Origin: Acidobacteriota bacterium
Lineage (GTDB): Bacteria > Acidobacteriota > UBA4820 > DSQY01
Assembly (NCBI GenBank): GCA_021778515.1
Contig: JAJYCJ010000006.1
Span: 1 to 63,124 of the forward strand
DNA: 63,124 nucleotides
Direction: 5' to 3'
Shown here: positions 1,622-21,651 of the stretch, in pieces
Layout: every line of letters begins with the position of its first letter
How positions within the stretch are numbered: the stretch's first letter is position 1
Program-made: the position numbers and the translations under genes
Notes under the pieces: generated by a model
Told to the model about the DNA's origin: nothing
Seen by the model: only the letters and a program-made list of their open reading frames with translations
Databases searched by the model: none

Positions 1622-4600
1622 GGTGTAAACCCGCCTTGTTCGAACATCCAAAGCTCGCTATTGCCGATGGCCTCATTGGCAGCGTCCGGCATCCACATGC
1701 GAAAGCCCGCTCCTACCGCCCAGCCCAACCCGAAGGCCCCGGGGGCAAAGCCTGTAGTACCTAGCAATCCTACCTCACCGAGGGTAGCTCCACCCCCCTC
1801 CAGCAACATCGTCAGGCCTGTCGAGGTCGCGCCCCCCGCTCCGTGCTCCCACGCCGCGGCGCTTCCCGCGTTGCCCCACAGGTCGGAGGTCACATAGCTT
1901 CCCGCCGACCACAGGCCGTAGGCGGCCCCGGCCACCGGAGCCCCATAGGACAGAGCGTTGCGGGCGTCCATCCCCAGCGGCGTCATGCCGGAGTTGACCA
2001 CCGCCGAGGCAAGGGGGCCGCCATACTCCATGGCCATGGGCGCATGGCTCAGCCAGTGCTCCAACCCCACTTCGGCTGCTGCACTGCCCGCGCCGGCCAG
2101 GATCGCATTCATATCCCCCGTAAACTCCCACCCGCTCGAGGAGGAACCTCCCGTATTCGCGTAGAGGCTCGCTTGAATCTCCCCATTCGAGTAGCTGGAG
2201 GTTCCGGTCGTCTCTACGTATGTAAAGCCCAACTGCGACATGCTTAGAGAATCGCTAAGCCCAGAATTCACGCATGCCTGTAGCCACGAGTCTCCTTGGC
2301 CGTACATCTGCACCGCTGCCTGAAGGGGGTCGATGGAGATGTCCTGCCAAATCGTGGAATCCAAGTAGTTATCCTCCGTCTCCATCGGTACCGCCACGGG
2401 CGGCCTGGGCCCGAAGTGCCCCGTCGGGTCCGCGAAGACGACGGGGTTTCCCTCCACGTAGCTGTACAGGTTCCAGCTCTGCGGATCGGCCGGGTTGCCT
2501 ACCACGTCGTCCGGGCTGTAAAATCGCTCCATCAAGGCCCCGTAGAAGCGGTAGTGCATGTCGTCCATCGTGTCCGTCCCGTTCCCCGTGAGATCGTCCC
2601 TCTCCTGCCCCGCGTAGTGGATCAGCGCGTACGCGCTCTGTGTCGGCGGCGGCATCTCCTGCCCGTACGGCTCGTAGTCGTGCTCCTCCACGATCGCCCC
2701 CGCCGCATTCGCCACCACCCGCACGCTCCCCACCTGGTCCCACACATAATAGTACACCGTCTCGTTGGCCAGCGCGGCCTCCGGTTGGGCGGCCCCCTCC
2801 GGGGCTGCTTCGCCGGCCATGCTGCCGCTCTGGCCCTGCTCCAAGCCATCGCACCCCTCGCCCCGCCCGAACGGGCTTGGGCCGGGGCCCCCATCGGCTT
2901 GCACCCCGAAGGACTCCCCCCCGGCGGTCCTCTCCCCGCTCGGCACGGCGCGAGCTCCCGCCTGCCGCCCGACCTCTCCCGGTCCACCCGGCCGCGCTAG
3001 GCTTGCTACCTGCGAGCCCGTGGTGACGGTGAGCGCGGTGTCGTCCAGGATGAACGCCGTCCCGTACGCGTCGGAGTTGGTGACGGCCCTGAACCGGATC
3101 TGCACCGCCTGACCCAGCAGAGAAGAGACACTGATGGTCGCCTGCTCCTGTCTCCACCCCCCCGCGTTCACGTTGCTCAAGGTCACGGGCGTTTGCAGGA
3201 CCGTGCCACCGGTCGTCAGAACTTCGACGTACAGGTAGTCCTTCGCCGTGGTCCCCGCCTCCTGCGTGTAGATCGCCACCCAGAAGCTCAGCGTGGCCGA
3301 GGTGGCCGTCGCGGGGATCGTCACCGTCTGCTTCACCACATCCGTCTGCCCGCTGTAGTAGCCCCCGTTGATCCCCCCGCCCAGGATCGCCATGTAGTAC
3401 CCCGAATGCGGCGTCGTCTGCGCCGTCGTGGTCGTGACCACCATGTGGCTGTTAGGACTGGTGTTGATCGTCCAGCCGCTGGTGCCCGATTCGAAGCCCG
3501 GGTTCTGCAAGAGCTGCTGCGCCGTGGATGTCGCCGTGAAGTTGATGTTGGTTTGGCTCGCCCCGCTGATCGTGACGGAGGTGTTCGCCGGCGAGAAGGT
3601 GTAGCCGCTCAGGCTCGGCGTCACCGTGTAGCTCCCATTCGCTAGGCCGGTGAAGCTGTAGGTCCCCCCGGTGCCCGTCGTGGTGCCCGCCGTGGCCGTG
3701 CCCGTGAGGCTGATGGCCACTCCGGAGGTGACGGCCCCGCCCACCGTCCCGGAAATCGTGTAGGTGGTCACCGCCGAGAACGAGGCGGTGATCGTGTGAT
3801 TGGCCGTCACGTTGCTGAAGGTGTAGCTGGCGATGGCGCCCTGGTTCGTCCCGTCCACCACCACCGAGGCGATCTGGTAGCCACTGTTGGCCCCGATGGT
3901 AAACGTCTGACTCCCTCCGGAGGACACCGAAACCGAACCGCTCGGGCTGATCGTGCCGCCCGTCCCCGCCGAGGCGGTGATCGTATAGCTGCCACCCGCT
4001 GCCGTCGCCGTGAAGTTCACCCCGCTCTGGTTGGTGCCGTTGATGGTCACGGAGGTGCTCGACGGCGTGAAGGTGTAGCCGGACAGGTTCGGCGTCACCG
4101 TGTAGGTGCCGTTCACTAGGCCGGAGATTGTGTAGGCGCCCGTGCTGCTCGTTGTTCCAGAGCCGGCGCCGGCGGTCACCCTCACGCCCGAGAGGCCCGC
4201 GCCGCTCAGCGTCACCGTCCCGGAGATGCTGTACGTGGCCACCGCCGAGTACGAGGCGGTGATCGTGTGATTGGCCGTCACGTTGCTGAAGGTGTAGCTG
4301 GCGATGGCGCCCTGGTTCGTCCCGTCCACCACCACCGAGGCGATCTGGTAGCCGCTGTTGGCCCCGATGGTAAACGTCTGACTCCCTCCGGAGGACACCG
4401 AAACCGAACCGCTCGGGCTGATCGTGCCGCCCGTCCCCGCCGAGGCGGTGATCGTATGGCTGCCACCGGCCGCCGTGGCCGTGAAGTTGACGCCCGTCAC
4501 GTTCCCGCCGCTCACCGTCTCGGAAGCGCTGGCCGGGGAGAAGGTGTAGCCCGAAAGGCTCGGCGTCACCGTGTAGCTCCCGTTCGCTAGGCCGCCGATC

Positions 4601-7600
4601 GTGTAGGACCCGTCGCTTCCCGTGGTGCCCGTGGAGCCAGCCTCGGGCAGGCGGACCTTTCCCGCGAGTGCGTGCTCCACAATCAGGCCGCTCCGCCCTG
4701 GCGCCAAGGCCGGCTGGGGCTCGCGAGCCCCTGTCCGGCCCGCCCCGCGCACCGCCCCCTGCCCCTGCGGTACCGCGGTGAACTCCTGCTGCGTTCTGTG
4801 CTGCGAGTCGCACGGCCGGCCCCCCGACGGCGTGAAGTTGTACCCTGGCATCGAGGGCACGATCGTCCCTTCCACGCCGGCCCCGTTCCCGCTCCCGCCT
4901 CCCGGCGGCTGCAAGATGTACAACCCCGTCGCATCCGTTGAAGCCGAGGCGTTCGCCGCGCTCACCGACACCCCGGCAACCGGCGTCCCGTCCGTCAGCG
5001 CTACCGTCCCCGACGAGCACTTCCTGCAGACGGAGCCGAAGAAGTTCACCGTCACACTGGACCCGTTGATCGTCGTCGTCTTTGGGTTCTTGAGGTACGT
5101 GATCACAATGCCGGTCGGCTGCCCAGCCGTCACCGTGTACGAGCCGTTGCCCAGCCCCGTGAAGCTGTAGGCCCCGCCGTTCGTGGTGGTGCTGCCCGAG
5201 GCCGCCCCCGACAGCGTCACCGGTATCCCTGACGGGCTCGGCATCCCATTGATCGTGAACTTCCCCGAAATGCTGTACGCCCCACCGGCCTTCGCCGCCG
5301 TAAAGTTCACCCCCGTCACGTTCACCCCGTTCACCGTCTCGGAGGCACTGGCCGGGGAGAAGGTATAGCCCGACAGGCTCGGCGTTACCGTGTAGGTCCC
5401 GTTCGCCAAGCCGGAGATCGCGTAGGCGCCCGAGCTGGTCGTCTGCGCCGAAGCTGAACCCGCTGTAACCGTTACCCCCGAAAGGCCCGAGCCGTTGTAG
5501 GTGATCGTCCCGGAGATCGTGTAGGTGCCCCCCGCAACCGCCGAGACCGTCACCCCCTGAAGGCCCGAGCCGTTCAGCGTCACCGCGCCGGCGATGCTGT
5601 AGGTGGCCGCCATCACCGTCACCGTGAAGGACTGGCTCGCCGTGTGGCTCGCGCCGTCTGTCACCGTGCACGAGGCCGGGTAGCTGCCGGCGGCCAGGTA
5701 GTTGTACGTCCCCGAACTGGCCGCCGAACTCCCTCCATCCCCGAAGCTCCACGAGTAGCTGTATGGGGCCGTACCCCCGGAAGCGCTGGCCGAGTAGGTC
5801 ACGTTCAGCGGCGCACTCCCGCTGAGGGGGGTGATGCTGGCCGTGACGCTGAGTGAGGAGGGAGCCGAGACGCTGATGGTCTGAGCCGAACTCGCACTGG
5901 CTTGGGGGTTGGCGGAGTCCGTCACCGTGAGCGCCGCTGTGTAGGTCCCGGCCGCGGTGTAGGTGTGGGTCGCCGAGGCGCCGCTCCCCGTGGCACCATC
6001 TCCGAAGGCCCAGGCGTAGGTATAGGGCGGGGTCCCACCCGTCGCGGATCCAGTAAACACCACCGTCAGGGGTGCCCGGCCAGACACCGGCGAGGCCGAG
6101 GCGCTGGCCGCCAGCGCCGTGGTGGCCGTGGCCGTGAAGGTCACCCCCGTCACGTTCGCTCCGTTCACCGTCTCGGAGGCGCTCGCCGGTGAGAAGGTGT
6201 AGCCGCTCAGGACCGGCGTCACCGTGTAGGTCCCGTTGGCCAGGCCGCTGATCGTGTAGGCCCCCGAGCTGTTCGTCGTTCCCGTGGCGGATCCCGCGGT
6301 CACCGTCACCCCGGAGAGTCCCGAGCCGTTCAGCGTCACCGTGCCGGAGATGGAGTACGCGCCGCCAGTGCCTCCCACGCCCCCCTCTTCGGAAGTCGCA
6401 AGGTGGCCGCCGATATAGAGGAAGGCCTTGGCGTTGCTCTGGGAGGGGTTGGTGACGGACGGGAAGTTCTCCTGGAGGCGGACCTGCGAACCGGCGCGGA
6501 AGAAATAGGTGACCCCCGCGCCGTTTCCCACGGCGACCCGCTCGCCCGCGGCATCATAGTGGTACGCCAATGGTGTGCCTCCGCCTGGGGGAGTCACGGC
6601 CACAATACAGTTGAGCGGGTCGTAGGCAAGCGCATTCACCCCGTCATTGGTCATGTTGCCTGGGGCGGTTCCGCCGCCACCGTAGACCGGTGTGTGGGTC
6701 TGGCTTCCCGTGCCGGAATTGGCCGTGAAAGAGGTGAGGCGGTTGGTGGAGGTATCTGGGGTAAACGTGAGGTTGGGCAGGGAGGCGCTCGGCGAAGAGA
6801 CGGTTCGCCCCCTGAGGTTCCCGAAATCATCGAAGGAGTACTGAAACGAGACGGGCGTTCCTGTCCCGTGCGGGTGGTACACCGTGGCCTGCTGGAGCCG
6901 GCCAAGGGGGTCGTAGCCGAACGTATCCGCTCCTTCTGCGATCACGTCTCCGATACCGTCGTACTGATAGTTTCCAGAATCCCATAACGGTTCGGTGATG
7001 GTCCCGGTCCCCGTTCCCCAAGTAATGTCCGAAAGCCGCCCAGTTTGCGCATCTTCCGAAAACTGCGTGGAGGTACCGTTTGCAAAGCTCAAAGTGTCCA
7101 CTGCGCCGGAGGGCCAGTAGGTAATACCCGTGATACCGGGACCGTCGGAAAACACTTTGGCCACAGGCAGGCCATAGTTGTAGCTAATGTTGGTAGAGAC
7201 GCTCACAGCGCTGCCGCGCACATCGGTCTCCTGCGTCACCTCGCCCTGCGTATCGTAGGTGAGCGAGGCGGTGTAGCCTGCCGTTGGAAGGCCGGAGAGA
7301 TTCAACAAGAGACTCGCTTGGCTCAGGCGGCCGCTCATTCCATTGTAGGTCCAGGATTCCTCTATCTGGCCGTTCTCCGAATCGGCGCGCGTCAACCGGC
7401 CATTCGACTCACCGTGGCCCGGCTCATCGTAGAACCACTGCCGCCAGATTTGCCCTCCTTCGCTCAAGGTGATCGCCCGCCCCCGGGAGTCGTATTCGCT
7501 GGTGTAAATTCGGCCGGCGGCATCTTCAAATTGAATCAGATGGCCTCCAGCGTCGTACTGCACGTACAGAAGCGTTCCTTTTTCCGGCAGCGCGGCCTGC

Positions 7601-10600
7601 CTGAGGAGCCCCAAGGCGTCGTAGGTGAACGTTCTGTTCGCCTGATGCACCGTTCCGCTCGAGCTGGCCAGCGCAACCTGGGTGAGGTGGTTGAGACCAT
7701 CGTAGGTGTACGTTGCTTGGGCGCCGGTGCTCGGGCTTACGCTCAGCAGGCGGCCGAGTGCATCCCGGACGTACGTCGTGGTACCACTCAAGCCAGAACC
7801 GGAGCCCGGCGCCGCATTGATATCGTTGATCGTAACCTGCGTCGTGGGCCCTTGTGCTGCAATCTCGGGATAGGCAACATCTCGGTGAGAACCATCAGGA
7901 CCGAGCACCTCGGAGATTCGGTAGAAGGGATCCAGCGTGCCTTGGAACGGCTGCGCCCCGGTCGCCCCGGCGAAGGGGGTGGTCCACGTTCCATACCCCT
8001 CTCCAGAGGCATTGGCCGGTGCAGCCATACCGAAAGTGCTGCCCGTCTCCACCAGGCCCGAAATGGTGGGATTGAGTGTCGTGGTCACCGATCCGTAGGC
8101 GTACGGCAGGGATTGAAATACCGCTGCACCCCATGGAGCGTACAGGGTGATCTTCTCCGACCACGTGTATCCGCTTCCCGATGCGGGGGGCATAACCGTA
8201 TCTGTTCGCCAGGGGCGCCCCAGATCATCGAGAGTCGTCACGCTATACAGGTCCGTATTGGAAGGCAAAGGAGTGCTGCTTCCTGGGCTCAATTCCGGGT
8301 TGGCCCCGCTCCCCTTGTAACGCTCAATCGTGTTCGGATTCGGGTAGGCGATTTGGGTCGGCGCCTCGCTTCCCCAGGGGCCTGGAGGAGGGGTAACACG
8401 GGTTATGCGGCCAATTGCATCGTATTGGAAACTCGTGGCGAGCTGGTTAGGGTCGGCCTGCGAAAGGATACGGCTGGTCGAGGAGTCGATGGTGCGTGTG
8501 AAGTCATTATACCCATACTCTGGATGCGTGGGATCCGCGGTGTTCACCGTCCGCCATTCGCTGTGGACTACACCGCTTTCCCAGGCAAAATTCTGGGTGT
8601 ACCCATGGCCTGCGTCTCCGCCCTGGAATTGCTCTGATTCAAGGTTCCCCAGATCGTTCGGGTCGGTTGTATAGGTAAAGGCCTGCGCTTGGTCTCCGCC
8701 CCCCGGTTGGACGGGATTTGGAAAGTCGAGATTCGTGAAATCGAACACGAAGCTTGCTTGCACCTGCTCGTAGCTCGTGTGGCTGCTCGGAAGGCCGAGG
8801 GAGGACGAGGAGTCGTACGTCCATTGTTCTGCCTTGAACTGCCCATTGAAGGTTTGCTGCCCAGACACCGGGGGATCCGTAAGCTCGGAGTCGCTCTCCG
8901 AAGACACGCCAGACAGGGCGGCAGTGGCCGTCCCGGTGTCTTGCTGCACGACCCGGTCCAGCTGGTACACCGTGGTCCGGGGATCGGTCCCGCTAGCCGC
9001 CAGATCCGGCGTGGTGTTCTCAAGGGTCATGGCCCGGCAGGCCACCTCAACTGGGGTTTGGGCAGGCAGGCCCGTCCCTGTCGTCTGGCTGAATAGATAG
9101 GTACCGAAGCCGTTCCATCCCAAGGAACTAGTGTCCCGGGACCATAACTGCTCGCTGCCGTTGTATTGCCCCTCAAATACTTCTCGCACGCGCGGGTTGC
9201 CTTGTTGGATGGGCGTGGGCGGATTCTGGCTGTCGTCGTAACAGAGGTGCACGTCTCCCTGCCCCTGGGCGTTATCACCATGCGAGTAGTACTTGTCCAC
9301 CCGGTACACGCAGCCCGTCATTTGAGGGCTGGAGGTGCTATAGACCGTACCTGGGGCCAGGAGAAGGTCGTGGAGTTCCTTTCCTGCCCTCAATCCCCCG
9401 TTTCCATCGGTGATGTAATGAACTTCAATCCGTCCCATGGGATCGGTCACGGGGATGGGCCTCGTCTCGGCGGTGTCGTTTAGATATGTGTTTTCGGTCT
9501 GGTTGTGGTCAAAGGTCCATACCAGGACGTTACTGGCCGTCCCGCTGATCCGCCCCGTTGGATCCACGGGATGCAGGGTCAGCGTGCGGGTGGCCACATC
9601 GTCATCCTCAATCAGTGAAATCTCTCCGGGCGGCAGCGAGGAGGCATAGATATACGATGAAACGGCCCCCGTCGGATAGGTAATGCTCGTCAGGTGGGTA
9701 TCGACAGGAGGTATACCCGAAGCATACGCATAGCTCGTCCGTTGTCCCACTGCATCGGTGACTTGCGTTAGCTCGGGATACTCCGAATGGCCATCCTGAA
9801 AGGAGACCATGCTGTACGAATAGACTTCGGACGTCCCACCCGCTGAGATGGACAGCAACATAAATGGCTGTCCAGCTTCTGAACCATAGTCGAACACAAC
9901 TTGCCGGCCAAACTCGTCCGTGATGGCGGCTATGGCACCCCCGAAGGGCTGGGCCGGTGGATTGAAGGCCTCATAGCCTATCGCGATCTTGTTCCCAGCA
10001 CGGTCGTCGATTTCCGTAACGTACCAGCCGTTGCTGAACTTGTTGGACACAGCGTTGTTGCTGATTTGCGGCGCAATGTACCCATTGGAGGCGGTTGCCC
10101 CTGCCACCAGGATCATGCCGTTGGGATAATAAATGAACCAGAGGTTGTTGTTAGGATCGGAGGTGTTGGCTATATTGTCGTAGTAATAGGCCCGGATGTA
10201 GGAGCTGTCGTCCGTGTAGTACCAGCCCGCATGGGGCGGATCGGTAGCGGATATGTTCTGACAATAGGGACTGCTTCCATAGTATAACCGGTGCTCCGCT
10301 CCAGTATGGTCCATGAAGAAAAAGAATTCTCGGACAAAAAGCCCCTGTCCGGAGGGATCCGCCAAACCCCGCTCAAACACCCGGCCATAGGACAATGTCC
10401 ATCCCATACCAACCGGACCGTACGGCAAATCGGCAGACTGTAGGCTATTGGAGTACGCCGCTTCGCTCACTTTGCTGTTGTAATAGAAAGTCGGGCTTAG
10501 GCTCGCCCCTAGATTTTGCGGCAGCGGGACGCCAAAGGAGTGGCTCACCACGAGTGTCCCATTCGCGATGTTGATCTCCTCGCCGTGTCCAAAGTCCTGA

Positions 10601-10878
10601 TAAGGCATATACGCATTCATGCCAACCGCAGTGTCCACGGTCTGTGGCGAAAAGGGTGCTGGCGCGGGTGGCGGCTGCAGGCTCTGGCCCCATACCACAC
10701 TTCCCCAGAGAATCCCCAAGGTCACGACGAGGAACCGTCCTCGAAGGATCCTGATATTTGACAGATGTAGCGCCTGCCGCCCCTTTGCGCTGACGCCCGC
10801 CAGCGATGCCACGATCCAGCGGAGGTACGCCACCACTCGCGCGCTGCCGCGCGCCGCCTGCCCCTTCCCCATTTCCAT
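1618..10878 (-). CDS. giant YD-repeat (RHS-type) surface protein with inserted adhesion-like domains and a unique C-terminal tip
   Basis: 3086 residues. Start chosen at the ATG at 10878, preceded by GAGGGGG at a good distance; in-frame ATGs at 10893 and 10872 are alternatives. A hydrophobic signal segment occurs unusually late (residues 41-65, FLVVTLGILWG). Residues about 80-1490 carry many YD/RHS repeats (YDALG, YDPLGRL, YDSRGR types). The RHS core is then interrupted (about 1493-2705) by carboxypeptidase-regulatory-like repeats (SGTVTLNGSGLSGVTV type), two PKD domains (about 1589-1757), two near-identical bacterial-repeat units and a discoidin/CBM-like segment starting NPGFESGTSGW. The RHS core resumes at YYYVWDQVGSVRVV and ends at NPVVFADPTGH (residue 2821). 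The last 265 residues are a Gly/Ala-rich hydrophobic tip with no recognised catalytic motif. RHS shells of this kind enclose and deliver C-terminal toxins; here the toxin role is inferred. The coupled small gene at 1621 supports it. Confidence 0.85.
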   Translation of the reverse strand: MEMGKGQAARGSARVVAYLRWIVASLAGVSAKGRQALHLSNIRILRGRFLVVTLGILWGSVVWGQSLQPPPAPAPFSPQTVDTAVGMNAYMPYQDFGHGEEINIANGTLVVSHSFGVPLPQNLGASLSPTFYYNSKVSEAAYSNSLQSADLPYGPVGMGWTLSYGRVFERGLADPSGQGLFVREFFFFMDHTGAEHRLYYGSSPYCQNISATDPPHAGWYYTDDSSYIRAYYYDNIANTSDPNNNLWFIYYPNGMILVAGATASNGYIAPQISNNAVSNKFSNGWYVTEIDDRAGNKIAIGYEAFNPPAQPFGGAIAAITDEFGRQVVFDYGSEAGQPFMLLSISAGGTSEVYSYSMVSFQDGHSEYPELTQVTDAVGQRTSYAYASGIPPVDTHLTSITYPTGAVSSYIYASSLPPGEISLIEDDDVATRTLTLHPVDPTGRISGTASNVLVWTFDHNQTENTYLNDTAETRPIPVTDPMGRIEVHYITDGNGGLRAGKELHDLLLAPGTVYSTSSPQMTGCVYRVDKYYSHGDNAQGQGDVHLCYDDSQNPPTPIQQGNPRVREVFEGQYNGSEQLWSRDTSSLGWNGFGTYLFSQTTGTGLPAQTPVEVACRAMTLENTTPDLAASGTDPRTTVYQLDRVVQQDTGTATAALSGVSSESDSELTDPPVSGQQTFNGQFKAEQWTYDSSSSLGLPSSHTSYEQVQASFVFDFTNLDFPNPVQPGGGDQAQAFTYTTDPNDLGNLESEQFQGGDAGHGYTQNFAWESGVVHSEWRTVNTADPTHPEYGYNDFTRTIDSSTSRILSQADPNQLATSFQYDAIGRITRVTPPPGPWGSEAPTQIAYPNPNTIERYKGSGANPELSPGSSTPLPSNTDLYSVTTLDDLGRPWRTDTVMPPASGSGYTWSEKITLYAPWGAAVFQSLPYAYGSVTTTLNPTISGLVETGSTFGMAAPANASGEGYGTWTTPFAGATGAQPFQGTLDPFYRISEVLGPDGSHRDVAYPEIAAQGPTTQVTINDINAAPGSGSGLSGTTTYVRDALGRLLSVSPSTGAQATYTYDGLNHLTQVALASSSGTVHQANRTFTYDALGLLRQAALPEKGTLLYVQYDAGGHLIQFEDAAGRIYTSEYDSRGRAITLSEGGQIWRQWFYDEPGHGESNGRLTRADSENGQIEESWTYNGMSGRLSQASLLLNLSGLPTAGYTASLTYDTQGEVTQETDVRGSAVSVSTNISYNYGLPVAKVFSDGPGITGITYWPSGAVDTLSFANGTSTQFSEDAQTGRLSDITWGTGTGTITEPLWDSGNYQYDGIGDVIAEGADTFGYDPLGRLQQATVYHPHGTGTPVSFQYSFDDFGNLRGRTVSSPSASLPNLTFTPDTSTNRLTSFTANSGTGSQTHTPVYGGGGTAPGNMTNDGVNALAYDPLNCIVAVTPPGGGTPLAYHYDAAGERVAVGNGAGVTYFFRAGSQVRLQENFPSVTNPSQSNAKAFLYIGGHLATSEEGGVGGTGGAYSISGTVTLNGSGLSGVTVTAGSATGTTNSSGAYTISGLANGTYTVTPVLSGYTFSPASASETVNGANVTGVTFTATATTALAASASASPVSGRAPLTVVFTGSATGGTPPYTYAWAFGDGATGSGASATHTYTAAGTYTAALTVTDSANPQASASSAQTISVSAPSSLSVTASITPLSGSAPLNVTYSASASGGTAPYSYSWSFGDGGSSAASSGTYNYLAAGSYPASCTVTDGASHTASQSFTVTVMAATYSIAGAVTLNGSGLQGVTVSAVAGGTYTISGTITYNGSGLSGVTVTAGSASAQTTSSGAYAISGLANGTYTVTPSLSGYTFSPASASETVNGVNVTGVNFTAAKAGGAYSISGKFTINGMPSPSGIPVTLSGAASGSTTTNGGAYSFTGLGNGSYTVTAGQPTGIVITYLKNPKTTTINGSSVTVNFFGSVCRKCSSGTVALTDGTPVAGVSVSAANASASTDATGLYILQPPGGGSGNGAGVEGTIVPSMPGYNFTPSGGRPCDSQHRTQQEFTAVPQGQGAVRGAGRTGAREPQPALAPGRSGLIVEHALAGKVRLPEAGSTGTTGSDGSYTIGGLANGSYTVTPSLSGYTFSPASASETVSGGNVTGVNFTATAAGGSHTITASAGTGGTISPSGSVSVSSGGSQTFTIGANSGYQIASVVVDGTNQGAIASYTFSNVTANHTITASYSAVATYSISGTVTLSGAGLSGVRVTAGAGSGTTSSTGAYTISGLVNGTYTVTPNLSGYTFTPSSTSVTINGTNQSGVNFTATAAGGSYTITASAGTGGTISPSGSVSVSSGGSQTFTIGANSGYQIASVVVDGTNQGAIASYTFSNVTANHTITASFSAVTTYTISGTVGGAVTSGVAISLTGTATAGTTTGTGGTYSFTGLANGSYTVTPSLSGYTFSPANTSVTISGASQTNINFTATSTAQQLLQNPGFESGTSGWTINTSPNSHMVVTTTTAQTTPHSGYYMAILGGGINGGYYSGQTDVVKQTVTIPATATSATLSFWVAIYTQEAGTTAKDYLYVEVLTTGGTVLQTPVTLSNVNAGGWRQEQATISVSSLLGQAVQIRFRAVTNSDAYGTAFILDDTALTVTTGSQVASLARPGGPGEVGRQAGARAVPSGERTAGGESFGVQADGGPGPSPFGRGEGCDGLEQGQSGSMAGEAAPEGAAQPEAALANETVYYYVWDQVGSVRVVANAAGAIVEEHDYEPYGQEMPPPTQSAYALIHYAGQERDDLTGNGTDTMDDMHYRFYGALMERFYSPDDVVGNPADPQSWNLYSYVEGNPVVFADPTGHFGPRPPVAVPMETEDNYLDSTIWQDISIDPLQAAVQMYGQGDSWLQACVNSGLSDSLSMSQLGFTYVETTGTSSYSNGEIQASLYANTGGSSSSGWEFTGDMNAILAGAGSAAAEVGLEHWLSHAPMAMEYGGPLASAVVNSGMTPLGMDARNALSYGAPVAGAAYGLWSAGSYVTSDLWGNAGSAAAWEHGAGGATSTGLTMLLEGGGATLGEVGLLGTTGFAPGAFGLGWAVGAGFRMWMPDAANEAIGNSELWMFEQGGFTP
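3781..4467 (-). repeat. two 216-bp nearly identical units inside the RHS protein gene
   Basis: Positions 3781-3996 and 4252-4467 are the same sequence with only two visible differences (near 3882/4353 and 3986/4457), spaced 471 bp apart. Each encodes a repeat containing GGTISPSGSVSVSSGGSQ and VVVDGTNQGAIASY. The identity at DNA level points to recent duplication or gene conversion within the gene. Confidence 0.9.
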
Positions 10879-11641
10879 GGTGATCCCCCTCATCTCTCTT
10901 GTTCATCCCTCACGGCTGCTCTCCCGGTATGGGGAGCCTCCAGGCAGAGGGCGCGGGCTTTCCAATTTCTACGTTATCAAGATATGTTTTTTGGCAACAT
11001 CCGTGCCGTTCCGGCACCGGGCGTGACATGACATGGTACACAGAACGGAGTTCCCGGTCAGTCGGTCACGCCGACTTCGGCCCTCGTTTAGTTTCATGCC
11101 GCTAGTAGCGGCCCGCCACTGGACCGCGCCGCGAGGGCATGAGCACCGCGTTCTCGCGTCAACATGGCGCGCCACTCCGACACCGAAGGCCACCTTGGCC
11201 TGCCACACGGGCCGCACCTTGTCGGCAACCGCAGGAGCATCGGTAATCACCACATGGGCTCTCCGCTCTCCTAGGCCACGTTCGGACGGGCCTGGAAGGG
11301 CGCCCGCCGCCGGCGTGGTCCCGCGCCCTGCAACCGCCGAGATCGAGGCGAGTACTCTTAGACCCAAATTCGGCGGTTGAAATGCGGGTGGCTTCGACCA
11401 AGGTTCAGGTTCACGGGAGGAGACATTGTTTCTTGGACGGGGAGGGCCGAGGGCTTTCTCCTCCGATTCGCAGGCCAAAGCCTGCCGAATCGTCGCCTTG
11501 CCCTCCGGGGCCCCGCCCTACGGGCAACCCGTTGGGGCCCCACCCCGCCCTTGGGGCTTCCTCCCCCGGATCAAGTCCGGGGGCGGAGGCAACGCAAGTC
11601 TTAACGCATTTCTGTAACGGGTAGCGTCCTACAAGCGAGCC
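10879..11641. other. intergenic, no supported gene
   Basis: Upstream of the RHS gene. It contains a GTGCCG-TTC-CGGCAC hairpin near 11000 and several overlapping open frames on both strands (for example around 11033-11380 and 10969-11478) that are Arg/Pro/Ser-rich and look like chance frames of GC-rich DNA. I see no clear promoter for the RHS gene. Confidence 0.45.
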
Positions 11642-12146: not shown

Positions 12147-13451
12147 TTACCATGACTCCCCCCTCTCTTCAAGCCCTTCGGGCCGCCGCGGCCTCTCCAT
12201 CCTGATGTCCTCCCGGGTGGGCAGTCCGTCGCCTCCCCGCGCGCCGTGGGGATCACGCGTGGCCGATTCAACTTCGCGCATGAGGTTGGCCACGAGCCCG
12301 CCCGCCTCGCGGCCGGCCATCTTGCCGACGGTAGTGGCCACGGCGGCCTCGGCCCGCCCGGCGTTCTCTTCGAGGCGGCTGGTGATGCGGTCGGGAGTGG
12401 CAGAGTAGAGCTTGGCCGCGGAGACCTCCGTGTGGTCGAGTCCGTGCTGGTCCTTGAAGCTGAACCGGTAGAGGCCGTCCTCGCCCAGCCGGGCGGTCAC
12501 GCCGCGGTCCCGGAGTCCTTCTGCGAAGGCCTCGTGGTTCTTGGCCGGGCGCAGGGCTTCGATGATCCGGCCCCGCAGGTCCCTCTGCCAGGAGTAGCGG
12601 TCCGATCGTTCGTCCTTCAGCCGGCGCCGGTAACCCTCCGGATCGCGCCGGAGCTGTTCCTTCTGCTGGCCGAACTTCTCCAGCAGGCCCCGCCGCTGGT
12701 AGGGCTCCCCGAGCTTGACCTCGCGGATGGCCCGTTGCCTGCCCGTCTCGTCGGTCATGGCGTAGCTGTACTTCCCTCCCCGTATCCTCAGCTCGACGCC
12801 CTGCTTCTTGAGCCGGCCTCTGAACTCCTCCTCGGAGAAGGCCCGGCGTCCCGCCTCGCGGATGCGGTCCTGGAGATCCAGCTTCCAGGAGTAGCGCCCG
12901 CCTCCCCGCTCGGCCTGCCGGAGAAATTTGTCGCTCGGCCGGTGCGGGTCCCTCACCCGGTCCAGCTCCCGCTGGATGCCGTGATTTCTCGCCAGCCGGT
13001 CGTTCACGTCTCGGAGGCGGTCCAGGTTGTGGTTGTCGTGGTGATACTTCCTGCCATCGCAGCCGGTGGCATTCCAGAGCACATGCACGTGCGGGTGCCC
13101 CTTCTCCCCGTGGACCACCACGAGGTAGTCGTGTTTCTGGGCAATCCCCACCTCCCGTGCCCACTCTTCACCGTAGTCCCCGAGCTTCCCGAGATCGGGT
13201 GGCCCGTCCGGACGGGCCAGGTCCCCGAGGTCGTTCCGCTCGAAGCTGATGGCGACGTGATAATACTGGCGGCCTCCCTCCTGCTCGAATTGGCTTCTGG
13301 CCGATTTAAACTCCCGCTCGACGGACTCCGCGCTCCGCCCGGTCACGTTGCCCCCCACGGCCTGGACGCGGTTGCGCGCCTCGTTCTGGTTGAGGAGATA
13401 GGAGATCATCTTGGAGCTGTCGCCTCCGACCGAGATCTTGAGGATGGGCAT
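12147..13451 (-). CDS. relaxase (MobA/VirD2-type HUH nuclease)
   Basis: 434 residues. Relaxases nick one strand at the origin of transfer, stay covalently bound through a tyrosine, and pilot the strand into a recipient. The N-terminal 160 residues carry the family signs: MPILKISVGG start, the YYHVAISF strand, and the metal-binding histidine cluster in GHPHVHVLWN. The region after that has Lys/Arg/Glu-rich helices (two similar segments near YSWKLDLQDRIREA and YSWQRDLRGRIIEA, an internal duplication) with no helicase or primase domain. It starts 3 nt after the mobC stop, so the two form an operon. No type IV secretion genes are present, so the element would be mobilisable rather than self-transmissible. 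The catalytic tyrosine is probably in the YLLN segment (about residue 18), which is inferred. Confidence 0.85.
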   Translation of the reverse strand: MPILKISVGGDSSKMISYLLNQNEARNRVQAVGGNVTGRSAESVEREFKSARSQFEQEGGRQYYHVAISFERNDLGDLARPDGPPDLGKLGDYGEEWAREVGIAQKHDYLVVVHGEKGHPHVHVLWNATGCDGRKYHHDNHNLDRLRDVNDRLARNHGIQRELDRVRDPHRPSDKFLRQAERGGGRYSWKLDLQDRIREAGRRAFSEEEFRGRLKKQGVELRIRGGKYSYAMTDETGRQRAIREVKLGEPYQRRGLLEKFGQQKEQLRRDPEGYRRRLKDERSDRYSWQRDLRGRIIEALRPAKNHEAFAEGLRDRGVTARLGEDGLYRFSFKDQHGLDHTEVSAAKLYSATPDRITSRLEENAGRAEAAVATTVGKMAGREAGGLVANLMREVESATRDPHGARGGDGLPTREDIRMERPRRPEGLEERGESW

Positions 13452-13454
13452 GGG

Positions 13455-13802
13455 TCATCCGAGGAGGATCGTGAGGAGCTCCTCCATGAGGACCCGGAGG
13501 GCGGTCACCTCTTGGAGATCCACCCGCCCCATATTGGCTTGGTGGGCAAGTTGGTTCAGGTTGCCGGAGAGACTTCGGATCGCTCGGTAGACTTCGTCGG
13601 GAAATTTGGGGACGGTCCGCAGGCGGGCGCCCATGATCAATCGCCGGGTGAGGGTGGCGGGCCGCTGGTTGGCGAGGCGCGCGAGCCCCTTGAGATGTTC
13701 GTACTCCTCCCGCGTCAGGCGCACATGGACCCGGTAGGGCCGGAGGCGAACCGATGCTGGAGGATCGCGCGGGATATCCGGAGGAAGGGCTGGTTCCGTC
13801 AT
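13455..13802 (-). CDS. MobC-like relaxosome accessory protein
   Basis: 115 residues, starting at an ATG 7 nt after AAGGAG. The pattern VHVRLTREEYEHLKGLA...RPATLTRRLI followed by LSGNLNQLAHQAN is characteristic of plasmid MobC proteins, which have a ribbon-helix-helix-like DNA-binding part and bind or melt oriT for the relaxase. It lies directly upstream of the relaxase, the usual order in mobilisation cassettes. Its own upstream region (13803-13996) is the likely place for oriT. Confidence 0.8.
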   Translation of the reverse strand: MTEPALPPDIPRDPPASVRLRPYRVHVRLTREEYEHLKGLARLANQRPATLTRRLIMGARLRTVPKFPDEVYRAIRSLSGNLNQLAHQANMGRVDLQEVTALRVLMEELLTILLG

Positions 13803-15177: not shown

Positions 15178-15510
15178 TCACGCTTGGACTTCGGATTCTT
15201 TCACGGTCTCCTCGGCGGTATTCGTGTACACCCGGGCCGCCAGGTAGGCCTTGAGGTCGCTCAGCCGGTAGGCCACCCGCGCCTTCCGGCTCTCCCCGAG
15301 GCGCACATAAGGGATGCAGCCTTTGCCGCCCTTGAGCCGACGCACCCGCAACGTCTGCGGCTTGCACAGGAGAATCCGTGCGGCTTCCGCACTCGGGATG
15401 AGGATCTCGTCCTCACGCCAGATTTTGCCGCGGGGCGATTCCGGGATGATGTCCGTTGGTTCTGAGGGCTTGAATGGAATGAAACTCGGGGGGTTATCCG
15501 ACTTTGGCAT
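15178..15510 (-). CDS. helix-turn-helix (excisionase/MerR-like) DNA-binding protein
   Basis: 110 residues; ATG 7 nt after AAGGAGG. Residues about 36-90 form an HTH_17-type winged helix: LIPSAEAARILLCKPQTLRVRRLKGG then PYVRLGESRKARVAYRLSDLKAYLAARV, the pattern of excisionase and small element-encoded regulators. It is the first gene of the leftward cassette and 23 nt from the replication protein start. Likely roles are regulation of the cassette or help with excision. No integrase is visible in the window, so the excisionase reading is unproven. Confidence 0.7.
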   Translation of the reverse strand: MPKSDNPPSFIPFKPSEPTDIIPESPRGKIWREDEILIPSAEAARILLCKPQTLRVRRLKGGKGCIPYVRLGESRKARVAYRLSDLKAYLAARVYTNTAEETVKESEVQA

Positions 15511-16794: not shown

Positions 16795-17447
16795 GTAGGT
16801 AGGCCCTCGCGGGCCTTCCCTGTCACACCACCGTGCGTACGGGTCCGTACATAGCGGTTCGGTGAGTTGTGCGGTCCCACCCTTAGGGGTGTCTCCGCCG
16901 GGTTTTCGGTTTCGCTTCCCGTGCCAAACGTTTCGGCCCTTCACTCCGCGAACCTTCGGGCTTCACCCTACGGCACCGCTTCGAAGGCCAGGTCGCCCCG
17001 GATGTTCCGCCGCTCTGCGTCCGCCATGGCTGCGTCCTGCTCGCCTCTCCAACCGTTCGGGCCTTCGGGGATCCCCTCCCCTCCTATGCCCTCTGCTGAC
17101 TCCAGCACCGCGGTCAGGGAGTCTTACGACCCCCTCAGTCCCGATCCCGGGAAACGGCGCAGGCCTCCCGGGGTAAGTCCAGCCGCCTTCCGCGCGCAAC
17201 CGCCAGATTTACGCTTTGCGCCCTTGATGGAGTTGGACTTCGCGCTCAGTAGCCCGCTCGTCCGGCGCTCACGCAATCCCATCTATCGGACCCTCCACCG
17301 GAGGGTCCTCCCGCTCGCTACTTCGCAGCTTGCGGAGATGGGCCCGTCCGTCGCGGTGACAGGCCCTTGCGCTTCGCTAACCCTTCACCTCCATCAGGTT
17401 GGGTAGAGGACTCTCACCCCAAAAGCTGCTGGTCATGCCGGGCACAC
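16795..17447 (-). ncRNA. ORF-less group II intron
   Basis: Read leftward, the 653-nt element begins GTGTGCCCGGCATG (5' end at 17447), a good group II 5' boundary. It continues with domain I motifs (GGTGAGAGTCCTCTACCC, then TTAGCGAAGCGCAAGGG) and ends with a domain V-like hairpin (GAACCGCTATGTACGG...CGTACGCACGGTGGTGTGA) and a domain VI-like hairpin (AGGCCCGCGAGGGCCTACC) with final TAC at 16795. No reverse transcriptase/maturase frame is present: domain IV is very short and all long frames are non-protein-like. It is either an intron that lost its protein and depends on one in trans, or a decayed copy. Boundaries are read by eye and may be off by a few bases. Confidence 0.75.
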
Positions 17448-17465
17448 ATACAGAACGACCATTAG

Positions 17466-17484
17466 ATGGTTGAAATTCAACCAT
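17466..17484. promoter_or_regulatory. palindromic operator candidate
   Basis: ATGGTTGAA-A-TTCAACCAT, a perfect 9+1+9 inverted repeat. It overlaps the -35 box of the next promoter and starts 52 nt before the ATPase gene, so a bound repressor would block polymerase. No dedicated regulator gene is adjacent. Confidence 0.65.
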
Positions 17485-17498
17485 TAAGCAGCTATATT
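17470..17498 (+). promoter_or_regulatory. sigma70-like promoter of the ATPase/primase-helicase operon
   Basis: TTGAAA (17470-17475), 17 nt, TATATT (17493-17498). Predicted transcription start is near 17505, only about 13 nt before the ATG, leaving a short leader with GGGAG as ribosome site. Confidence 0.7.
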
Positions 17499-17517
17499 TG
17501 AGCCGAGAGGGAGAGCG

Positions 17518-18753
17518 ATGATCAAGCGACACTTAAGCTCAGCCGTGGCCGAGGCACTAAAGGACACACCTGTAGTTCTCCTGGTCGGCGCGAGGCAGAC
17601 CGGAAAGAGCACCCTGGTCAACTCGCTCCTCGGGACCGCTCCCATCAGGCGCTATCTTACCTTCGATGACCAAGGCGTCCGCGATGCGGCGCGGAGCGAC
17701 CCCGCAGGTTTCTTGGCCGGTCTGGAGGGTCCGGTGACACTAGACGAGGTCCAGAAAGCGCCCGAGCTGTTCCCAGCGATGAAGGCCGTCGTGGACCGAG
17801 ACAGGAGACCCGGCCGCTATCTTCTCACCGGATCCGCAAACGCGCTCATGCTGCCGAGACTCAGCGAGTCTCTTGCCGGCCGGATGGAGGTCCAGACCTT
17901 GTGGCCCTTTTCCCAAGGCGAACTGAAAGGCCGGCGGGAGACCTACCTTGAAAAGGTTTTTCAGGCCAAGTTCTCTCCAAAGCCCTCTCATGGTGGCGGG
18001 GCAACGGCATGGCCAGAACTGGCCTGCCTCGGAGGGTTCCCCGAGATTGTCGCCCGCGCCTCGGCGCCTCGCCGCCGTCCCTGGTTCCGATCCTACGTGG
18101 CGACCGTACTTTCCCGGGACGCACGAGACCTCGCCAACATCGAATCGCTTGCCACTCTCCCCAGGCTCCTGGGCCTGCTGGCTTCTAGGACCGCGTCGCT
18201 GCTCAACTATGCGGACCTATCCCGCACTCTGGGAATGCCGCAGAGCACCCTAAAGCGCTATATGGGACTCCTGCAGGCATTGTTCCTCTTCCACCCCCTG
18301 CCCGCCTGGTCCAGTAACCTGGGACAGCGACTGATCAAGTCGCCGAAGGTTCTGCTTTCGGACACAGGCCTGCTCGCACACCTTACGGGCGCCACCCCGG
18401 ACAAGCTCCGCCAGGATCCGACAGCGGCTGGCCACCTACTGGAGAATTTCGTCGCCATGGAGCTGGTCAAGCAGGCCTCGTGGTCCGAGACGCAGGTCCA
18501 GGTCTTCCACTTCCGGACCCTCACCGGAACCGAGGTGGACATTCTCCTAGAGGATGAGGAGGGCCGCGTCGTCGGAATCGAAGTAAAGGCCTCGGCCACG
18601 CCATCGTCCTCAGACTTCAAGGGGTTGAAGAGCCTAGCGGAGTGCGCCGAGAACAAGTTCGTGCGGGGAATCGTGCTGTACACAGGCAGCGAGGTGATTC
18701 CCTTTGGGAAGAACCTCACCGCCGTGCCTTTGCCGGCACTCTGGGAGTCTTGA
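17518..18753 (+). CDS. AAA ATPase with DUF4143 domain
   Basis: 411 residues. Members of this family are P-loop ATPases (AAA_14) joined to a C-terminal DUF4143 domain with a restriction-endonuclease-like fold. Visible here: Walker A GARQTGKST (24-32), Walker B-like VTLDEVQ (73-79), a sensor-type LLTGSAN, a winged-helix middle part (YADLSRTLGMPQSTLKRYMGLL) and a C-terminal GTEVDILLEDEEGRVVGIEVKAS (about 340-362) in which the D and E-x-K residues match the nuclease-like core. The family is widespread on mobile elements and its function is poorly known. The next gene starts 3 nt after the stop, so the two are one transcript. Codon use is more AT-tolerant than in the chromosomal neighbours, consistent with transfer. 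Confidence 0.85.
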   Translation: MIKRHLSSAVAEALKDTPVVLLVGARQTGKSTLVNSLLGTAPIRRYLTFDDQGVRDAARSDPAGFLAGLEGPVTLDEVQKAPELFPAMKAVVDRDRRPGRYLLTGSANALMLPRLSESLAGRMEVQTLWPFSQGELKGRRETYLEKVFQAKFSPKPSHGGGATAWPELACLGGFPEIVARASAPRRRPWFRSYVATVLSRDARDLANIESLATLPRLLGLLASRTASLLNYADLSRTLGMPQSTLKRYMGLLQALFLFHPLPAWSSNLGQRLIKSPKVLLSDTGLLAHLTGATPDKLRQDPTAAGHLLENFVAMELVKQASWSETQVQVFHFRTLTGTEVDILLEDEEGRVVGIEVKASATPSSSDFKGLKSLAECAENKFVRGIVLYTGSEVIPFGKNLTAVPLPALWES

Positions 18754-18756
18754 CCC

Positions 18757-21216
18757 ATGGGGGATCGGCGCGAGCTTAAGGAACAAATCGCGCGCGAAGA
18801 AGAAAGACTCTCATCGTTAACCCGAAAATTGGAAGAGCAGCGCGAGATCGTCGCATCGCTCAAGAAAAGGCTGGATTTCGCAGAACCAGAACGCTCCGAA
18901 ACGATCACAAAGCCTGTTCTGGCCGCATCAAGCTCTGGGCTCTCTGCTATCGAGAAGGTGCGCCTGTTCAGGTCTCTATTTCGTGGGCGCGAGGACGTCT
19001 TTCCACGCCGATGGGAAAACGCGAAGACGGGCCGCTCCGGTTACGCTCCAGCTTGCGAGAATGAATGGGCACCAAAGGTCTGCGCCAAGGGCGAGGCGAG
19101 GGGGCGTCGCACATCCGGCAGCGTTTGTGGGGAATGCAAGAACCAGAGATTCCTTGCAGTCACCGATGAGCAAATCGCCTGGCACTTGAAGGGGCTTCAG
19201 GTCATGGGCGTCTACCCTCTTCTCCTGGACGAAACATGCTGGTTCCTGGCCGTGGACTTCGATGGCGAGAGCTGGCAGGAGGACCTCGCAGCGTTTTCGA
19301 AGACGTGTGCCCTTCATGGTTTTGCGGCATCCGTCGAACGATCCCGCTCTGGAAATGGAGCCCATGCCTGGTTCTTCTTCGCTGAACCTGTGCCTGCCGC
19401 GACAGCCAGAACAATGGGCTGTTTCTTCATTACCGAGACCATGGCTCGCAGGCACCAGCTTCCGATGAAGTCTTACGACCGTCTTTTCCCGAATCAAGAC
19501 ACGATGCCCATGGGTGGTTTCGGGAATCTTATCGCACTGCCCCTTCAACGAGAGGCCCGGCTTCGAGACAATTCAGCCTTCCTGGATTCCCGCTTCCTTG
19601 CGCTTCCAGACCAATGGAGCTATCTGGCTTCGGTCCCTCGAATTGAGAAATCCAGGGTGCAGGCAATAGCAAGGGAGGCAAGCAGCTCTGGACGGACGAC
19701 CGGACTCACGCTGCCTACCGAGCCAACCGACCAGGACTCTGATCTGGGAAGGCCGTACCGGCGTTCGGCTCGGCGAAGCGTGGTGATTTCGGAAGCGCTT
19801 CCCCAGCAAGTGACGGCCAATCTGGGAAGTCGGGTCCGGATCTCCAAAGAAGGCCTCCCCTCCTCGCTCCTCAACTCCATCAAGCGTCTTGCCGCATTCC
19901 AGAACCCTGAGTTCTACAAGAAGCAGAGCATGCGGCTTTCCACCGCCATGACTCCGCGGGTTATCGCCTGCTTCGAGGAGGACTCCCGCTTCATCGACCT
20001 GCCGCGTGGGTGCCTCTCCGACTTCGCTGCCATTCTCAAGGATCATGGAATTTCTCTGGTTCTCCAGGACGAGCGCGAGAGTGGTGTCCCGATCGACATC
20101 ACCTTCCATGGGCACCTGACAGATGAACAAGAAAGGGCGCTTCAGGCTCTTCTTGCGCACGAGACGGGAGTTCTTGTGGCTCCACCCGGGGTTGGAAAGA
20201 CGGTTACCGGAGTCTCCCTGATCGCGGCCAGGAGGAGGAGCACGCTGGTCCTGGTCCATCGAAAGCCGCTTCTGGACCAATGGACTGCCCAGCTCGCTCT
20301 ATTTCTGGGCATTTCCCCCAAGGAAGTCGGTCAAGTTGGAGGTGGTAAGCGCAAACCGAATGGGCAGCTAGATGTGGCCATGATTCAGAGCCTGGTCCGC
20401 AAGGGGAAAGTAGAGGGATTGGTACAAAGCTATGGCCACGTGGTCGTAGACGAATGCCACCACGTTTCCGCATCTTCCTTCGAGCGGGTTCTGGCTGAAG
20501 TCAGAGCCAAGTATGTCACGGGTCTGACCGCTACGGCCCGGCGCCGAGACGGGCATGAGCCGATCATCCAGATGCAGCTTGGACCCATACGCCATACGGT
20601 CTCCCAGAAGGAAACCGTTGCAGCCAGGGGAATGGACCGCACGCTGATTGTCCGCGAGACGGGATTCGATCCGACAACGATTCCCAACGGAGCCAGCATC
20701 CAAGAGATCTACGCCCTTCTCTGCCAATCCGAAGCCCGCAACGACCTGATCTTCGACGACATCATCGCGGCTCTGGAGGCGGGCAGGTCTCCCATTGTTC
20801 TAACCGAGAGACGGGACCACTTGGAGCACCTTGCTGAGAGACTCAAGCGATTCGCGAAACACCTGATCGTTTTTCACGGTGGCATGAAGGCGCGGGAGCG
20901 GAGAGAATCTTTTCTTCGCTGCCGAGAGCTGCCGGCACACGAAGAGCGGGTGCTGCTCGCCACTGGGCGTTTATTGGGCGAGGGCTTCGATGATGCGAGA
21001 CTGGATACCCTCTTCCTCACCCTCCCGGTCTCATGGAGAGGCACTCTGGTTCAATACACTGGGCGCCTGCATCGCAACTATGGCGGGAAGAAGGAGACAC
21101 TCGTCTACGACTACTTGGACGAGGAGGTGCCCGTCCTCAGGCGGATGTTCGAGAGGCGCCTGCGGGGATACCGAGCCATTGGATACGAGTTGCCCCATTC
21201 GCATCTACAATCCTAG
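18757..21216 (+). CDS. TOTE-type archaeo-eukaryotic primase fused to SF2 helicase
   Basis: 819 residues. Order: an N-terminal coiled coil (about 5-42), the family signature LFRSLFRGREDVFPRRW (70-86), a four-cysteine zinc-binding insert (C100, C109, C124, C127), then an archaeo-eukaryotic primase core with the DxD metal site in AVDFDG (D167, D169) and the histidine motif SGNGAHAW (H203). A linker of about 150 residues leads to an SF2 helicase: Walker A VAPPGVGKT (474-482), DECH box (565-568), GLTATARRRDG, and a C-terminal helicase lobe ending in QYTGRLHRN. This architecture is that of the primase-helicase in TOTE conflict systems, proposed from comparative genomics to act in element competition or defence. 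All catalytic residues look intact. It forms an operon with the DUF4143 ATPase. What the pair does to nucleic acid is not known to me. Confidence 0.85.
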   Translation: MGDRRELKEQIAREEERLSSLTRKLEEQREIVASLKKRLDFAEPERSETITKPVLAASSSGLSAIEKVRLFRSLFRGREDVFPRRWENAKTGRSGYAPACENEWAPKVCAKGEARGRRTSGSVCGECKNQRFLAVTDEQIAWHLKGLQVMGVYPLLLDETCWFLAVDFDGESWQEDLAAFSKTCALHGFAASVERSRSGNGAHAWFFFAEPVPAATARTMGCFFITETMARRHQLPMKSYDRLFPNQDTMPMGGFGNLIALPLQREARLRDNSAFLDSRFLALPDQWSYLASVPRIEKSRVQAIAREASSSGRTTGLTLPTEPTDQDSDLGRPYRRSARRSVVISEALPQQVTANLGSRVRISKEGLPSSLLNSIKRLAAFQNPEFYKKQSMRLSTAMTPRVIACFEEDSRFIDLPRGCLSDFAAILKDHGISLVLQDERESGVPIDITFHGHLTDEQERALQALLAHETGVLVAPPGVGKTVTGVSLIAARRRSTLVLVHRKPLLDQWTAQLALFLGISPKEVGQVGGGKRKPNGQLDVAMIQSLVRKGKVEGLVQSYGHVVVDECHHVSASSFERVLAEVRAKYVTGLTATARRRDGHEPIIQMQLGPIRHTVSQKETVAARGMDRTLIVRETGFDPTTIPNGASIQEIYALLCQSEARNDLIFDDIIAALEAGRSPIVLTERRDHLEHLAERLKRFAKHLIVFHGGMKARERRESFLRCRELPAHEERVLLATGRLLGEGFDDARLDTLFLTLPVSWRGTLVQYTGRLHRNYGGKKETLVYDYLDEEVPVLRRMFERRLRGYRAIGYELPHSHLQS

Positions 21217-21506
21217 GCTCCCTTCCCTAGGCCTTCATTCTTATGAATCCTGCTGGTCAGCCGGAAACGCGATCTGGGCGCTCCAGGTGGAGCGGCAGGT
21301 GGAGCGGCACAGATGGCAGACCCGGATCAGGCCACCTTCGACGCCGCGAAAGACCACGCTTATGGAACCAGAGGGAGGAGGGAACGGGCCGACTTTCGCC
21401 CTCCAAGTGCCTTCACGGCGCCTTCCCTCGGTGGGTCACGCCCACCTGCAAAGCCCGAGTTCTCCTGCGCTTCATCCGGAGCGGGAAAATGGTGGGGGGA
21501 CTATCG

Positions 21507-21528
21507 CCGTGGAGCGGTGGTGGAGCGG
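21507..21528 (+). repeat. 22-bp direct repeat, copy 3
   Basis: Identical to 16767-16788 and preceded in both places by a GGGAAAA-containing stretch. It lies 47 nt from the 3' end of tRNA-Thr. Confidence 0.85.
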
Positions 21529-21536
21529 CAACACGA

Positions 21537-21556
21537 AGGCCGCCTTTTGGCGGCCT
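21537..21556 (-). terminator. hairpin downstream of tRNA-Thr
   Basis: AGGCCGCC-TTTT-GGCGGCCT, perfect 8-bp arms, 19 nt past the tRNA 3' end on its transcription side. Only a short TT follows, so termination strength is uncertain. Confidence 0.5.
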
Positions 21557-21575
21557 CGTAACTACCTGATTTTTC

Positions 21576-21651
21576 TGGAGCCGACGGCCAGAATCGAACT
21601 GGCGACCTGATGATTACGAATCAACTGCTCTACCAGCTGAGCTACGTCGGC
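21576..21651 (-). tRNA. tRNA-Thr (anticodon CGU)
   Basis: Read leftward: 7-bp acceptor stem GCCGACG/CGUCGGC, D arm GCUC-AGCUGGUA-GAGC, anticodon loop UUCGUAA with anticodon CGU, T arm GCCAG-UUCGAUU-CUGGC, and an encoded CCA end at 21576. The anticodon stem has one apparent U-U mismatch (GUUGA/UCAUC). The 3' end faces the accessory island, the usual orientation for tRNA-targeted integration. Confidence 0.93.

Follow-up and report, generated by a model that had tools for sequence, protein, structure and literature searches.

The DUF4143 ATPase of an Acidobacteriota operon probably reads an operator lying over its own promoter

We analyzed a 63,124-nucleotide (nt) stretch of DNA from an Acidobacteriota bacterium (contig JAJYCJ010000006.1 of assembly GCA_021778515.1; the window) and found the promoter of a two-gene operon to be covered by a perfect palindrome, which is probably an autogenous operator. 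The first gene, open reading frame 1 (ORF1; positions 17518 to 18753, plus strand), encodes a protein of 411 amino acids that joins an AAA_14 ATPase, a winged helix-turn-helix (wHTH), and a DUF4143 PD-(D/E)xK nuclease, an architecture listed in PADLOC as PDC-S01. The second gene, ORF2 (18757 to 21216, plus strand), encodes a protein of 819 amino acids with an AEP-TOTE primase and an XPB-like superfamily 2 helicase. On comparative evidence, the wHTH of ORF1, with its TLKRY recognition helix, probably covers the -35 box and thereby blocks the sole visible promoter of the operon.

The ATG of ORF2 follows the ORF1 stop codon after 3 nt, both genes lying on the plus strand, and the only sigma-70-like site within 17400 to 21600 is TTGAAA (17470 to 17475) and TATATT (17493 to 17498) separated by 17 nt (17470 to 17498, plus strand). 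A purine-rich, putative ribosome-binding site, predicted from the letters, precedes the ATG at 17518 (17505 to 17515, plus strand). The palindrome, ATGGTTGAAATTCAACCAT, has two 9-nt arms around one central position (17466 to 17484, with no strand), contains the -35 box, and has TGGTTGAAATTCAACCA as its core at 17467 to 17483. A preliminary description of this locus had reported that the two genes share a promoter and are separated by 3 nt, and that a perfect 9+1+9 palindrome lies over the -35 box; the coordinates agree on both counts. The heptamer ACCATTA at 17458 to 17464 (no strand) recurs 22 bp further on, at 17480 to 17486, and may be what is left of another operator copy, placed at the 22-bp spacing seen in the family; a complete second copy at this spacing was found at locus L049 of genome G118. 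The window has seven sites at which palindromic arms of 9 nt or more enclose a loop no longer than 3 nt, so the size of this one is little proof by itself, and its conservation carries the case.

At L002, a locus from the same genus, the palindrome is AGTGGTTGAAATTCAACCACT, with a 10+1+10 structure in which the pair 17466/17484 has changed on both sides, from A-T to G-C. The DNA similarity between the window and L002 stops at position 17459, and no alignment was obtained further upstream. With one mismatch allowed, a single copy of the 17-mer TGGTTGAAATTCAACCA was found in each of the genomes G000, G002, and G118, all of which carry a close homolog of ORF1, and none in the genomes of 17 other relatives. 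The ATPase of G118, 80% identical to ORF1, has the same operator and no primase-helicase gene behind it. Judged by these comparisons, the palindrome goes with the DUF4143 gene, whether or not a primase-helicase gene follows. The expectation that it would be kept upstream in relatives was thus correct for L002 and G118, as well as for TLKRY-type homologs of other genera. The promoter geometry TTGAWW-N17-TAWAWT is retained at L048, L049, and L050 and, in another phylum, at Thermus L159. The operator overlaps the gene's own promoter, and no other promoter of the genome carries the motif.

For a family-wide view, the DNA directly upstream of genes was scored jointly for inverted and tandem repeats, ungapped and with a threshold of at least 9; this score superseded a tandem-only periodicity test, which had given 24/71. 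The threshold was reached by 45 of the 69 DUF4143 genes of the phylum (65%) versus 7.8% of 395 control genes (p ~1e-22), and by 12/27 of those in genomes of other phyla, 12/21 on viral contigs, and 6/10 on plasmids, with one gene (L024/L228) falling in two of these sets. At 340 to 430 bp upstream of the same DUF4143 genes, only 0 to 8% reached it. A matching motif was found downstream of only 2.9% of DUF4143 genes, indicating that the repeats are not element ends flanking both sides. Among the roughly 70 genes read in the phylum, the upstream repeats were commonly inverted, or tandem with a period of 22 or 23 bp. Searching the viral contigs with an alignment retrieved 31 DUF4143 loci; a single-sequence search had found no close match there to ORF1 or ORF2.

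The reverse test ran the operator patterns of two clades over genomes of the phylum. The clade-B pattern, which has two sites, occurred at 10 places in 396 genomes, nine of which immediately precede a DUF4143 gene, and its reversed form, the control, at none; two of these nine genes were decayed or truncated. The clade-A pattern was found in five genomes, in four of them before a DUF4143 gene. Operator arrays preceded a decayed or truncated DUF4143 gene at L201 (G242) and L206 (G297), and the array at L204 (G206) had no DUF4143 gene within the 3 kb read.

The operator followed the recognition helix of the protein. It was shared by 36% of gene pairs at 50 to 60% protein identity and by 77% at 60 to 80%, versus 2% for a far-upstream control flank, and among pairs with 50 to 60% identity outside the wHTH, sharing climbed from 13% to 65% with the identity of the recognition helix. 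The partial Mantel correlation was 0.106, and 300 permutations had a standard deviation of 0.019 and a maximum of 0.056; simple rank correlations, in which operator similarity was set against the identity of the AAA, wHTH, or nuclease part, came out too alike to tell the three apart, whereas the comparison by recognition helix at a fixed background identity did discriminate. Cross-genus pairs with the TLKRY helix had a common operator in 37 of 42 cases, and DUF4143 paralogs of the same genome in 2 of 29. Proteins with the TLKRY helix had TGGTTGAA as their operator motif, whether in the window's phylum, in Thermus, Azotobacter, or Pseudomonas, or on a viral contig, and those with the SRPTIRDY helix had TTnCAATCAGCCG. 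Likewise, QPTVHRYLNLLE went with TGAATGANTATCATTCA, both in Thermus and in the window's phylum, VNTVKAWLSVLE went with TTTTGCATTNNGAATGCAA, and RRYLD-type helices were accompanied by ACCATGAAA...TTTCATGGT, or a form with one change, in genomes labeled Syntrophus, Gammaproteobacteria, and Coriobacteriia. In these comparisons, including those across phyla, the operator tracks the recognition helix of the protein rather than the genome that hosts it.

Because the motif tracks the recognition helix and the reverse search hit almost only DUF4143 promoters, ORF1 most likely represses its own promoter. The preliminary description had proposed that the ATPase, by way of its winged helix, might be the regulator that reads the palindrome, and the comparative evidence for this is strong. 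The ORF1 recognition helix would occlude the promoter by sitting on half-sites of the form TGGTTGAA/TTCAACCA that cover the -35 box; the position of this box inside the operator and 17 bp from the -10 box, retained in Thermus, favors such an occlusion. Many members have at least two sites one 22- or 23-bp step apart, i.e., about two helical turns, which suggests a cooperative oligomer bound on one face of the DNA. What takes ORF1 off the operator may be a ligand, its nucleotide state, or invading or broken DNA that titrates it away; a passenger gene, where there is one, would then be expressed together with the ATPase-nuclease. In the window's genus, the passenger would be the primase-helicase, brought under the ORF1 switch, and a role of the operon as a candidate defense locus is plausible. 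A published hint comes from TT_P0211 of Thermus thermophilus, described as having AAA_14, DUF4143, and HTH: in an RNA-seq study of 2015, a plasmid raised its expression 6.6-fold in a strain with Argonaute and did not do so in the Argonaute deletion strain (PMC4406477). TT_RS11170, presumably the same gene, has the palindrome TGAATGACTATCATTCA ahead of its start.

Several points weigh against autogenous repression. About a third of the DUF4143 upstream regions stayed below the repeat threshold, some of them perhaps owing to the choice of start codon and the ungapped scoring. The partial correlation is of modest size, since distant pairs, with no operator in common, make up most of the comparison. 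Positive autoregulation would fit the comparative data nearly as well, although the overlap with the -35 box favors repression. The Thermus induction requires Argonaute, and several genes near CRISPR loci also went up (PMC4406477). Finally, we equate TT_P0211 with TT_RS11170 solely by the order of their accessions.

ORF1 matched AAA_14 (E 2.3e-23) and DUF4143 (1e-44; 152.5 bits against a cutoff of 28.1), and residues 1 to 410 aligned end to end with the PADLOC PDC-S01 model PDLC04790 (E 4.7e-166). Its Walker A residues G29, K30, and T32 and its nuclease residues E339, D341, E355, and K357 (18532 to 18588, plus strand) were invariant in 26 homologs. In an AlphaFold model (pLDDT 90.4, pTM 0.91), the wHTH sits between the ATPase and the nuclease and spans residues 213 to 261 (18154 to 18300, plus strand), with helices at 213 to 223, 231 to 238, and 242 to 254 and a strand at 258 to 261; from the model and the operator covariation, helix 242 to 254 is the predicted recognition helix. 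Fold searches with this model returned RuvB, Avs3/4/5, Apaf-1, and Orc subunits and also listed the Card1/Can2 nucleases, and neither sequence nor fold searches found a solved full-length homolog. ORF2 matched AEP-TOTE (1.5e-90; 303 bits against a cutoff of 27), ResIII (3.6e-22), and Helicase_C. Across 31 homologs, its residues D167, D169, H203, C100/C109/C124/C127, G480-K481-T482, D565-E566, and H568 were invariant, and C567 was kept in 90%. The earlier reading of ORF1 as a nuclease-fold AAA/DUF4143 ATPase with a winged-helix segment is therefore upheld by the profiles, the model, and the invariant residues, and that of intact primase, zinc-cluster, and DECH helicase sites in ORF2 by residue conservation.

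Among known systems, ORF1 matches the profile of PDC-S01, an AAA_14-DUF4143 phage defense candidate, over its full length. The available part of the PDC-S01 source describes no regulation, to which the present analysis adds the self-operator, the 22/23-bp phasing, and the covariation with the helix. A single paper among the 5.39 million searched names DUF4143, and a self-operator of DUF4143 genes appears to be undescribed in that literature, which left most subscription papers outside. STAND, Orc, and RuvB-type NTPase-winged-helix proteins resemble the ORF1 model in fold, but none of the matches was full length and the superposition scores were low (TMq of at most 0.40); to our knowledge, none of these proteins is an autogenous repressor-nuclease. 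AbiE, a type IV toxin-antitoxin system whose genes are the commonest recurrent neighbors of ORF2-type genes, offers a parallel in regulation, as AbiEi acts by negative autoregulation through inverted repeats, according to the available part of one account (PMC7319586). However, AbiE divides its functions between the separate antitoxin AbiEi as repressor and the toxin AbiEii, whereas ORF1 would unite repressor, ATPase, and nuclease.

ORF2 shares its AEP-TOTE primase and helicase effector with TOTE (TPR, OB, TBP, Effector) systems, whose definition, in the portion of the source available, includes TPR-OB/CSD and TBP genes (PMC12458937). The genome, 97% complete, gave no match to TBP (PF00352), and the control was positive in four archaea. 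ORF2 is flanked by ORF1 and a tRNA gene with no TPR-sized gene between, and no genome-wide TPR-OB or TPR-CSD profile search was made. We rejected a classical TOTE conflict system for this genome, which lacks TBP; of the earlier label TOTE-type, the primase-helicase effector stands with its AEP-TOTE profile, and the membership in a TOTE system does not. The primase part of ORF2 also aligned with 7nqd/7nqf (E 1e-7), which we take to be entries of a CRISPR-associated primase-polymerase, and matched the PADLOC PrimPol model (5.5e-83), but its score against PrimPol_Msp was 82, under the NCBI cutoff of 200, and it carries a helicase in addition.

The most serious rival holds that the DUF4143 and primase-helicase genes form a dedicated two-component defense system whose products act jointly on invading DNA. 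We consider this unlikely, even though the genes are 3 nt apart in two species and all active sites are intact. We searched 45 ORF2 relatives in GTDB contigs and the 396 genomes of the phylum and found the tight pair only in the window and at L002. A DUF4143 gene lay within ~1.5 kb of an ORF2-type gene in 4 independent lineages of ~70, versus 0.18 expected (P 4e-5), which suggests that both gene types probably share islands. In the three looser lineages, there was no conserved order or orientation, the layout varying each time (upstream, divergent, convergent). At L143 (G113), two DUF4143 genes flank the primase-helicase; L126 (G389) is a divergent pair and L024 a convergent one. A recurrent DUF4143–TOTE operon was thus rejected, with the tight pair confined to one genus: the two-gene system first envisaged was not found among unrelated genomes, where proximity exceeded chance and a fixed, tight neighborhood was lacking. 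In addition, G118 retains the ATPase without the partner, and primase-helicase genes also stand beside genes of AbiE type (AbiEi/AbiEii; 13 neighbor sets, e.g., L007, L013, L024, L025, L026, L034, L035, and L041) and Fic-like type (7 sets) and, singly, RhuM and ATPase_2-DUF234, as far as these families were checked on representatives. Pfam confirmed the AbiE neighbors at L007, L034, and L041. In some of the AbiE neighbor sets, the genes overlap or lie just a few tens of bases apart, and a small CcbP-like gene lies directly 3′ of the ORF2-type gene in 6 sets. The pairing of ORF1 with ORF2 looks incidental, and we tentatively regard the primase-helicase as a passenger that settles behind self-regulated modules.

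Alternatively, a host transcription factor or nucleoid protein may read the operator, the DUF4143 gene being merely its target. Palindromic operators for trans-acting factors are indeed widespread, as the 7.8% of control genes with equally high scores illustrate. Yet a host factor is hard to reconcile with an operator that follows the helix and not the genome, i.e., one that differs between paralogs of one genome, agrees between same-helix proteins of different genera and phyla, and occurs in its genome only at the DUF4143 promoter; we rate this reading as very improbable. We give the same slim chance to the idea that the repeats serve to mobilize the DUF4143 gene, as its recognition or attachment sites, or act as replication iterons. 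The DUF4143 genes are patchy, multicopy, and common on plasmids and islands, and RuvB and Orc are among the structural neighbors of the fold, but the repeats stand upstream only, overlap the promoter at a fixed geometry, and occur on chromosomes as well as on plasmids and viral contigs. Four genomes, G396, G398, G411, and G418, had 21 to 31 DUF4143 matches each (31 in G398), a striking load for a candidate defense gene. Lastly, it is scarcely credible that the neighboring group II intron, whose 5′ end is ~19 bp away, targets the palindrome or produced it as a by-product, as this is contradicted by the palindrome being kept at L002, L049, L051, and Thermus L159 with upstream DNA unlike the intron.

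This intron (16800 to 17447, minus strand) contains no ORF, matched RF01998 at 17060 to 17138, and was delimited by eye; its 5′ end reads GTGTG on the minus strand, and no such intron was seen at this site in the homologs read. On the other side of the operon, a tRNA-Thr gene (CGT; 21576 to 21651, minus strand) is a possible boundary of a cargo island. The operon may lie on an integrative mobilizable element beside this gene, but no attachment repeat was found in the window, where no 13-mer of the tRNA region recurs. Pointing to such an element, the minus strand of the window encodes a MobA/VirD2-type relaxase (12147 to 13451), a NikA/MobC-like protein (13455 to 13802), and a small HTH excisionase-like protein (15178 to 15510). 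The minus strand also has a single open reading frame of 3,091 amino acids at 1618 to 10893.

Detections of PDC-S01 number 29,494 in bacteria and 9,986 in archaea, and most such candidates await experimental validation, according to the available text of the source (PMC12988326). With a little less than even confidence, we propose that DUF4143 ATPases are a very large class of one-protein switches combining sensor, repressor, and nuclease, which would use clade-specific, 22/23-bp-phased operators read by a variable helix, coexist as paralogs without cross talk, be released by foreign or cleaved DNA, and confer inducibility on passengers that settle behind them. A code linking helix to operator would allow the DNA target of a DUF4143 protein to be read from its own promoter, make the operator usable as a reporter for the inducer, and explain the coexistence of paralogs with different operators. 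The pair in the window would then illustrate how an unrelated effector may come under a DUF4143 switch.

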